This document shows positions 42,158-44,084 of a stretch of DNA of 64,000 bases, in pieces. The notes below the pieces were generated by a model. The model saw only the letters and a list, made by a program, of their open reading frames with translations, searched no databases and had not been told where the DNA came from. The stretch comes from Actinoallomurus spadix (GTDB lineage Bacteria; Actinomycetota; Actinomycetes; Streptosporangiales; Streptosporangiaceae). The DNA lies in NCBI RefSeq assembly GCF_024055725.1, contig NZ_JAMXMX010000012.1, positions 1-64,000 on the forward strand, given 5' to 3'. The position numbers and the translations under genes were made by a program. The stretch's first letter is position 1. The number at the start of each line of letters is the position of its first letter.

Positions 42158-43366
42158 ATGCCGCTGCTCCGCGTACGCACCGAGATCGACGACCGGCCGG
42201 GCCGGCTCGCCGTCCTGACCGCCGCCCTGGCGGCGCAGGGCGCGAACATCCTCGACCTGTCCGTCCAGGTCGACGCGGACGGCGTGGTGGACGAGTTCGT
42301 CGTGGACGTGCCCACCGGAGTCACCGCGGAGGCGCTCACCGCGGCCGTCGCGGCCGCGTCGGGTCGCCGGACCAGCGTCGTTCCGGCGACCCCGCAGGAA
42401 CTGATCGACGAGCCGAGCCGTGCCCTCTCCCTCGCCGTACGGCTGCGGTCGAACCCGCGTGCTCTGCCGGAGATCCTCGCCGAACTGCTCCGCGCCGACA
42501 GCGCGGAGTGGGCGGCCGGCCCCGCCGCCCTCGGCGACCACCCGGATCCGTCGGCGGTCACCATCGCCGCGGGACACCACGGGGTCCTCCTGCGCCGCGA
42601 CGGGCTGCCGTTCACGCTCACCGAGATCGCCCGCGCCAACGCGCTCGTCCGCTCGCTCCTCCCGTCCCACGGCCCGGCCCCGACCCGGCAGCGGCTGGTC
42701 CTCGGGGACGGCACCGAGATCACCGTACGGCCGCTGACGCCGCTCGACGCGGAGGAGGTACGGGATCTGCACGCCCGGTGTTCGCCGGAGAGCCGCCGGC
42801 GGCGCTACTTCAGCGCGCGCCACGACATTCCCGAGCGGCTCCTGCGGGTCTTCTGCGACCGGGCGCACGGCCTCACCATGGCCGCCGAGGGCCCCGACGG
42901 GTCGATCCTCGCGCTCGCCCACCTGATGTACACCCTCGACCCGGGAGTCGGTGAACTCGCGTTCCTCGTCGAGGACGGGTGGCAGGGCAGAGGCATCGGG
43001 TCGGCACTGGCGCGTCATCTGGTCGCCGTCGCCGACGAGCGGGGGCTGGCCGAGGTCCGCGCCACGATGCTCGCCGGCAACTCCCGCATGCGCGGCCTCC
43101 TCGGCGGTCTCGGCGCACGGTTCCGCGCGTCGGACGACCCGCGGCTGCTCGAAGCGCGGCTCGCCCTCGGCCCCGCCCGTACGGACGACCCGCAGCCGGT
43201 CGTGGTCCGGGACCGTGCGCAGGGCCCGCGGCCGGTCGTGGTCCGGGACCGTGCGCAGGGCCCGCGGCCGGTCGTGGTCGGGAACCGTGCGGAGGGCTCG
43301 CGGCCGGTCGTGGTCCGGGATCGTGCGGAGGGCTCGCGGCCGGTCCGGGTGCGATCGGTGGGGTGA
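42158..43366 (+). CDS. ACT-domain GNAT acetyltransferase with repeat tail
   Basis: This 402-residue protein has an N-terminal ACT domain (1-75; DRPGRLAVLTAALAAQGANIL), a middle helical segment and a GNAT domain (about 185-330). The acetyl-CoA loop is Q276-G-R-G-I-G281. ACT-GNAT proteins of actinomycetes are known as amino-acid-controlled protein lysine acetyltransferases, acting on acetyl-CoA synthetase. The final 57 residues are a 12-residue repeat (PVVVRDRAQGPR) with no known function. ATG 42158 follows AAGGGG. The ClpP-like gene comes next, with its own Shine-Dalgarno. Confidence 0.82.
   Translation: MPLLRVRTEIDDRPGRLAVLTAALAAQGANILDLSVQVDADGVVDEFVVDVPTGVTAEALTAAVAAASGRRTSVVPATPQELIDEPSRALSLAVRLRSNPRALPEILAELLRADSAEWAAGPAALGDHPDPSAVTIAAGHHGVLLRRDGLPFTLTEIARANALVRSLLPSHGPAPTRQRLVLGDGTEITVRPLTPLDAEEVRDLHARCSPESRRRRYFSARHDIPERLLRVFCDRAHGLTMAAEGPDGSILALAHLMYTLDPGVGELAFLVEDGWQGRGIGSALARHLVAVADERGLAEVRATMLAGNSRMRGLLGGLGARFRASDDPRLLEARLALGPARTDDPQPVVVRDRAQGPRPVVVRDRAQGPRPVVVGNRAEGSRPVVVRDRAEGSRPVRVRSVG
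43193..43360 (+). repeat. 36-nt in-frame tandem repeat, four copies plus partial
   Basis: Units start at 43193, 43229, 43265 and 43301, and a truncated one at 43337. Units 1 and 2 are almost identical; 3 and 4 share GAGGGCTCG instead of CAGGGCCCG. Each encodes 12 residues, charged then hydrophobic (PVVVRDRAQGPR). Copy-number variation would keep the frame. Confidence 0.92.
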
Positions 43367-43375
43367 GGCGGCGGC

Positions 43376-43381
43376 TATCGT
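43376..43381 (+). promoter_or_regulatory. candidate -10 of the ClpP-like gene
   Basis: TATCGT lies 28 bp before the ATG at 43410, 10 bp after the stop of the acetyltransferase gene. The start has a good GGAGG (43400-43404 region), so this would be a normal leadered transcript. Confidence 0.4.
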
Positions 43382-43409
43382 CGTAGGGAGCCCGCGAAGG
43401 AGGTGCCCG

Positions 43410-44084
43410 ATGACGATGCCGCCCGTTCCACCGGAGTTCCCCGGCGACCCGGCCCGCCCATCAGGGCCGTCGGTGCCGTCGGTGCCGTCCTGGCCGAGGC
43501 CGCCGTTCCCGCCCGGCGGGCCGTCGCCACCGGGCGGGTCGTCCGCACCGGATGAGGCCGACCCGCTCCGTGACCGGCTGCTGGAGCACCGGATCATCCT
43601 GGCCACCGGGCACTTGGACGGCGCGCGCGCCTCGGAGCTGTGCGCGCGACTCGTGACGCTCGACGCCGCGGGGGAGGAGCCGGTCCGGCTCCACCTGCAG
43701 ACCCCGGACGGTGAACTCGAGGCGGCCTTCGCCGCCGCGGACACCGTGGGCGCGCTCTCCTGCCCGGTCCACGTCGTCGTCATCGGCCAGGTCGGCGGGC
43801 CACCGCTCGCCGTGCTGACCGCCGGGCGACGGCGTGAGATGACGCCCCACGCGGTGCTGCGGCTGGCCGAGCCGCGAGCGAGCCTTCCGGCCGGCGGGGC
43901 CTCGGCCGTCGCGGCGCGGGAGGAGGAGCACCGGCGCCTCGTCGACGCCTTCTACGACCGGATCGCCGAGACGACCGGCCGCGCGGTCGGCGAGATCCGC
44001 GCGGACGCGCGCGAGGACCGTCTCCTCACCGCCGACGAGGCGGTCGCCTACGGCCTGGTCGACGCCGTCGTGGCCCGGCCGTAG
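43410..44084 (+). CDS. ClpP-like protein lacking catalytic Ser and His
   Basis: This 224-residue protein has a Pro/Gly/Ser-rich start (about 45 residues) and then a ClpP fold (RLLEHRIILATGHLDG, LHLQTPDGE, VVIGQ, LTADEAVAYGLVDAVV). Aligned by eye to E. coli ClpP, the active-site Ser falls on Gly130 (GQVGGPP in place of GQAASMG), the His on Ala153 and the Asp on Asp199, which is kept. It should not cut peptides by the usual mechanism. It may be a ClpR-like structural subunit or a peptide-binding regulator. GGAGG is 6 nt upstream of the ATG. It follows the ACT-GNAT gene. Confidence 0.8.
   Translation: MTMPPVPPEFPGDPARPSGPSVPSVPSWPRPPFPPGGPSPPGGSSAPDEADPLRDRLLEHRIILATGHLDGARASELCARLVTLDAAGEEPVRLHLQTPDGELEAAFAAADTVGALSCPVHVVVIGQVGGPPLAVLTAGRRREMTPHAVLRLAEPRASLPAGGASAVAAREEEHRRLVDAFYDRIAETTGRAVGEIRADAREDRLLTADEAVAYGLVDAVVARP

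Follow-up and report, generated by a model that had tools for sequence, protein, structure and literature searches.

A conserved actinobacterial family of ClpP-fold pseudoproteases with a recurrent HigA-like HTH gene partner

Inactive ClpP proteins are already known as parts of the Clp core in cyanobacteria and plastids. ClpR, which occurs in cyanobacteria, plastids and apicoplasts, has a ClpP fold that lacks a working catalytic triad (PMC7966870), and the same is true of the protein described here, ClpPd, which is encoded in a 64,000-nucleotide stretch of Actinoallomurus spadix DNA (the window). Whereas ClpR belongs to the Clp core, the recurrent genomic partner of ClpPd relatives, which we call pseudo-ClpPs, is an HTH gene. 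Pseudo-ClpPs also differ from ClpR in that they keep the catalytic Asp (43 of 45 sequences) and have mostly lost a docking aromatic residue. With active ClpP (PF00574), they share the Pfam family, above its cut-off, and the predicted fold, but they lack the Ser and the His, have a degraded SPGG motif and score far below the NCBIfam ClpP cut-offs seen.

HigA/HipB-like antitoxin operons are a close comparison for the gene pair. Of the solved structures, those of HigA3, HigA and HigA2 come nearest to the partner HTH protein, and in both cases a palindrome lies at the operon start. However, in the operons described here, the HTH gene comes first, the second gene encodes a pseudo-ClpP instead of a known toxin, and fusions of the two occur. 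In TAC modules such as HigBA-SecB of M. tuberculosis, a HigA-type HTH protein is likewise encoded with a protein of the proteostasis machinery (PMC5105189). In contrast, no toxin gene was seen in the pseudo-ClpP operons, and the companion is a ClpP fold rather than a SecB chaperone; the fusion to the HTH protein is peculiar to the pseudo-ClpP case.

A ClpP fold without Ser and His

The gene for ClpPd (224 amino acids, ATG start) lies on the forward strand at positions 43410–44084. A sequence-only reading of this DNA had noted the stretch 42158–44084, with a ClpP homologue next to an ACT-GNAT acetyltransferase; the ClpP-like gene takes up only the part from 43410 onwards, and 42158–43366 is a separate gene for an ACT-GNAT protein. 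The Pfam CLP_protease match of ClpPd is 86.7 bits (cut-off, 20.2), and its score lies below all of the NCBIfam ClpP cut-offs. The same reading held that the family fold is kept, and the AlphaFold model (pLDDT 88.0, pTM 0.74) points the same way: it matches solved ClpPs (Foldseek, TM about 0.9), among them M. tuberculosis ClpP1P2 (9p54_d; target TM 0.92, 29% identity), and the long handle helix (residues 164–189) is confidently modelled. The ordinary ClpP N-terminus is replaced by a Pro-rich stretch of low confidence (residues 1–50, positions 43410–43559, pLDDT 50–70 in ten-residue blocks); the N-termini of relatives are also Pro-rich.

Alignment with five ClpPs from the same genome confirmed the proposed assignment of the active-site residues. 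Gly130 (43797–43799) occupies the catalytic Ser position, Ala153 (43866–43868), which is followed by Glu154-Pro155, occupies the His position, and Asp199 (44004–44006) occupies the Asp position. Those five other ClpPs, ClpPd and one C-terminal fragment make up the seven PF00574 matches in the window genome. One of the paralogues (L004, G000:C10:67649-68188) has Ala at the Ser position and retains the His and Asp. The fragment (L007, G000:C55:50952-51077) has an open frame of 62 residues and lies directly 3′ of an intact ClpP gene. Upstream of the ClpPd gene, we noted by eye a TATCGT sequence on the forward strand (43376–43381) that is a possible −10 box; by eye, it is common to the window, L038 and L040, and absent in L039.

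We compared 45 non-redundant pseudo-ClpP sequences with 37 other ClpPs. In a draw of 120 genomes from the same family as the window, clear relatives (called at E ≤ 1e-32) occur in 19 genomes, including that of the window, and the next match drops to 1e-21. Scanning contigs of named genomes yielded 26 loci, some of which are on the same contigs; they come from Streptosporangiaceae MAGs, a Mycobacterium MAG, Mycolicibacterium, Nocardia, Nonomuraea, Thermoactinospora, Bailinhaonella and the Actinoplanes group. In a class-wide draw of 393 other genomes, 12 had matches with E ≤ 1e-38; 11 were examined, and L128 was left out. In a phylum-level draw of 396 genomes, with at most 8 candidates scored per genome, the 29 best non-window loci were ClpP sequences with Ser and His.

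The catalytic losses are uniform across this set. The Ser position is Gly in all 45 pseudo-ClpPs and Ser in 36 of the 37 other ClpPs, the exception being the window-genome paralogue with Ala. His is found at its position in none of the 45 and in all 37, and the following residue is Glu in 36 of 45 compared with Gln in 37 of 37. The first Gly of the SPGG (oxyanion) motif survives in only 7 of 45, against 37 of 37, and the Asp position is still Asp in all but two pseudo-ClpPs. Pro155 and Arg142 are present in all 45. No alternative Ser or His is conserved among the 45 sequences: the best Ser column reaches 22 and the best His column 25. A shifted catalytic Ser was rejected, as only nine of the sequences have a Ser one residue ahead of the original position. 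Decay confined to one strain was also rejected, as relatives from the same genus and the 45 sequences as a whole lack Ser and His. The Ser and His changes are conserved across genomes, the point that the sequence-only reading had proposed to check, and neither observation that it had named as fatal, a conserved Ser and His elsewhere or sister species with an intact triad, was made.

In the tree, the pseudo-ClpPs form one side of a branch that separates them from the 37 other ClpPs (support, 100/100); the tree was rooted by midpoint, has some long end branches and was built without cyanobacterial ClpR sequences. Six pairs of close relatives from other genera than that of the window have a dN/dS of 0.09–0.16, values that show purifying selection and point to a retained function. 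With PF00574 membership and the fold present and the Ser-His-Asp triad absent, the family is, as judged from sequences and predicted structure, one of conserved actinobacterial pseudo-ClpPs that have lost Ser and His and kept Asp.

Neighbouring genes in the window and in relatives

The immediate upstream neighbour of ClpPd is the ACT-GNAT protein (402 amino acids, 42158–43366, forward strand), which exceeds the cut-offs of GNAT Pfam models and falls just under that for ACT (25.8 versus 27). Its pairing with the ClpP homologue had been read as meaningful, which its distribution does not support, and we rejected it as a functional partner. Among the inspected loci of 18 relatives, the two genes adjoin in only one besides the window genome, that of the sister genome G091. 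In G025, they are about 2 kb apart with other genes intervening, and in G052 and G115 the ClpP relative occupies the same glyA-side place without an ACT-GNAT gene. The ACT-GNAT gene is found in 75 of the 120 family genomes (some matches are partial), but in only 5 of 19 with a pseudo-ClpP compared with 70 of 101 without one (Fisher p = 6e-4, uncorrected for kinship). At window positions 43189–43345, 4.4 copies of a 36-base tandem repeat extend the C-terminus of the ACT-GNAT protein, and the relative in G091 was called at 355 amino acids compared with 402 in the window.

The recurrent neighbour is a different gene. Upstream of the pseudo-ClpP gene, 24 of the 45 loci have a small XRE/HigA-like HTH gene; the family draw accounts for 14 of these (among its 18 relatives), the non-redundant loci of the contig scan for nine more and another family for one (L120). 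The HTH gene is directly upstream or fused in 23 loci, and a single gene intervenes in L046. Strong matches to the HTH protein (E ≤ 1e-33) occur in 15 of the 120 genomes, and in 14 of these a pseudo-ClpP gene lies alongside (with one gene between in G026); in the fifteenth, G017, the contig ends just past the apparent start of the pseudo-ClpP gene. Co-occurrence of the two genes in the 120 genomes gives a Fisher p of 2.5e-13, uncorrected for kinship. When the first available start is taken, the genes overlap by 1–22 bases in 15 of the 24 loci, and they are fused in frame in L055 (on the same contig as L061) and L059. As the ClpP parts of L055 and L059 are 96% identical, these fusions may represent one event in two assemblies. 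In addition to its nearness to HigA-type structures, the HTH profile matches TIGR03070 (couple_hipB), below the cut-off. The pair also occurs on a Nocardia plasmid (NZ_CP109567.1; L153, 4579–5495), where the two genes overlap by 4 bases and have an integrase and an IS5 transposase close by; the ClpP relative there, which is not among the 45 sequences, lacks Ser and His by eye.

A palindrome similar to TATCTC-N6-GAGATA lies just 5′ of the HTH start. A pattern search that was given 25 HTH loci yielded a sequence for 24 and found the palindrome in 19. By eye, four of the remaining five have looser forms and L120 has a different palindrome. The right arm merges into TAYCGT, by eye a plausible −10 box. 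In 10 of the 15 HTH genomes, an exact match is found beside the HTH gene. However, each of 10 genomes that lack a strong HTH match also contains the palindrome one to five times, so that its position ahead of the HTH start is the only informative feature. A wider palindrome regulon was rejected, as the remaining matches are roughly as common as in those 10 genomes. In L049 (9900–10045), there is no HTH gene, yet the right half of the palindrome and a likely −10 box directly precede the pseudo-ClpP gene.

The 21 pseudo-ClpP loci without a nearby HTH gene comprise the window genus (four), L020, six loci of the Actinoplanes group and ten loci of two further families, for which the search covered gene calls, made with a simple in-house script, in flanks of at most 1.5 kb. 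The HTH-less Actinoplanes and f91 pseudo-ClpPs are under strong constraint (dN/dS of 0.09–0.155); therefore, the protein has some task in those lineages without the HTH partner. Judged from the midpoint root, pairing with the HTH gene may have arisen after the pseudo-ClpP family.

A probably orphaned copy in the window genus

The window genus nests beside the HTH-bearing L014 (support, 99/96), within the HTH-bearing part of the tree, and none of its four genomes (G000, G052, G091 and G115) has a strong HTH match. Given this position, loss of the HTH gene in the genus is the simplest reading. Pseudo-ClpPs of the window genus have a dN/dS of 0.41–0.42, compared with 0.09–0.16 in the six other pairs. 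For the pair of the window and G091, ten neighbouring genes have values of 0.07–0.26, all below that of the pseudo-ClpP; for the other pair from the genus, six neighbouring genes range over 0.15–0.41, so that the pseudo-ClpP again has the highest value, although opcA reaches 0.41. The names glyA, zwf and opcA are presumed for the neighbouring genes from their sequences. In the G091 protein (L009/L038), a deletion has removed 15 residues close to the start of the domain. Each of the four genomes found for the genus has an uninterrupted ClpP-like frame. On the best reading of these comparisons, the window copy would be an orphaned descendant of an HTH-paired pseudo-ClpP, and its own task is uncertain.

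A possible regulatory role and its alternatives

We consider it somewhat probable that, over much of the range of the family, the pseudo-ClpP works with a self-repressing HTH protein as its partner or co-regulator, and that the window copy has been orphaned. Across much of the family, the pseudo-ClpP gene is second in a small operon that opens with the XRE/HigA-like HTH gene. The HTH protein would bind the palindrome and repress its own operon, and the pseudo-ClpP, probably still oligomeric, would bind the HTH protein and alter its stability or its DNA binding, in the role of a partner or co-regulator rather than that of a protease. The window genus would have lost the HTH gene, and its pseudo-ClpP would have been carried to the glyA-side site, where constraint is weaker. 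The operon arrangement, the gene overlaps, the fusion and the palindrome together make such a role the most likely one in the HTH-bearing lineages. More tentatively, the emptied active site could sense peptides or proteolytic stress, with the pseudo-ClpP perhaps forming a ring that displays or sequesters an autorepressing HigA-like HTH protein and, in some lineages, the two being one polypeptide; we regard this more detailed version as possible but less likely than not.

Inactive ClpPs are established as core subunits (PMC7966870), and a pseudo-ClpP could similarly join the rings of the real ClpPs of the genome to tune or assemble the Clp core; a role as assembly partner had also been suggested by the sequence-only reading. 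Possible ring partners are encoded in the window genome, which has further ClpPs, and the fold and handle helix predicted for ClpPd would be suited to this. However, the column that we take to match E. coli Tyr62, in the docking site, holds Tyr or Phe in 28 of the 37 other ClpPs, whereas 41 of the 45 pseudo-ClpPs have His or Glu there. In Streptomyces ClpP2, mutation of the pocket residues S94, Y96 and Y116 abolished ATPase-driven degradation (PMC9765437); Y96 probably corresponds to this column. Further pocket columns discriminate poorly and vary among ordinary ClpPs too. The changed aromatic, read with the Streptomyces mutants, makes a ClpR-like role less likely, and the recurrent neighbour is the HTH gene and no Clp gene, in a family carried by only 19 of 120 genomes. 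We regard such a structural role as unlikely. That the pair is instead a toxin–antitoxin-like module, with the HTH protein as HigA/HipB-like antitoxin and autorepressor and the pseudo-ClpP as an effector that, for example, poisons Clp cores by mixing in, seems highly unlikely, although the HTH profile (HigA3, HigA, HigA2 and, under its cut-off, couple_hipB), the compact overlapping operon with a palindrome at its start and the plasmid pair near an integrase and an IS5 transposase would fit. An antitoxin-like HTH gene, a palindrome and a compact operon, which are features of type II toxin–antitoxin systems, were found by sequence in the relatives and not in the window. Nearly half of the pseudo-ClpP loci (21 of 45) have no nearby HTH gene, and some of these copies are strongly constrained, which would be odd for a toxin; in-frame fusion is unusual for a labile antitoxin; and the window protein matched no known toxin family and had no PADLOC match.

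For the window genus itself, the raised dN/dS, the deletion in G091 and the loss of the HTH partner could mean that the gene is now functionless and drifting towards loss. Yet dN/dS is well under 1, the frame is intact throughout the genus and the core without Ser and His is kept, so that we find drift distinctly unlikely. Far more remote is the idea that the pocket has taken up other chemistry or another ligand, as in the wider crotonase-like fold: the near-constant Glu154, Pro155 and Arg142 surround the lost site, and two relatives have weak enoyl-CoA hydratase matches, far below the cut-off, but most members have lost the oxyanion Gly-Gly, and the family conserves no other catalytic pair throughout. 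A phage or defence origin was rejected, with the window protein lacking a PADLOC match and the phage matches being less than 60% identical among the matches listed.

Implications

In searches of an open-licence library, we recognised no description of an HTH-linked inactive ClpP; subscription papers lay largely outside this scope. At least one family member, that of the Nocardia plasmid, is publicly annotated as an ‘ATP-dependent Clp protease proteolytic subunit’. The comparisons made here suggest that a protease fold may have been reused for regulation. If the operon and fusion tie of this conserved actinobacterial family to a DNA-binding protein holds, it would place a pseudoprotease in gene regulation.
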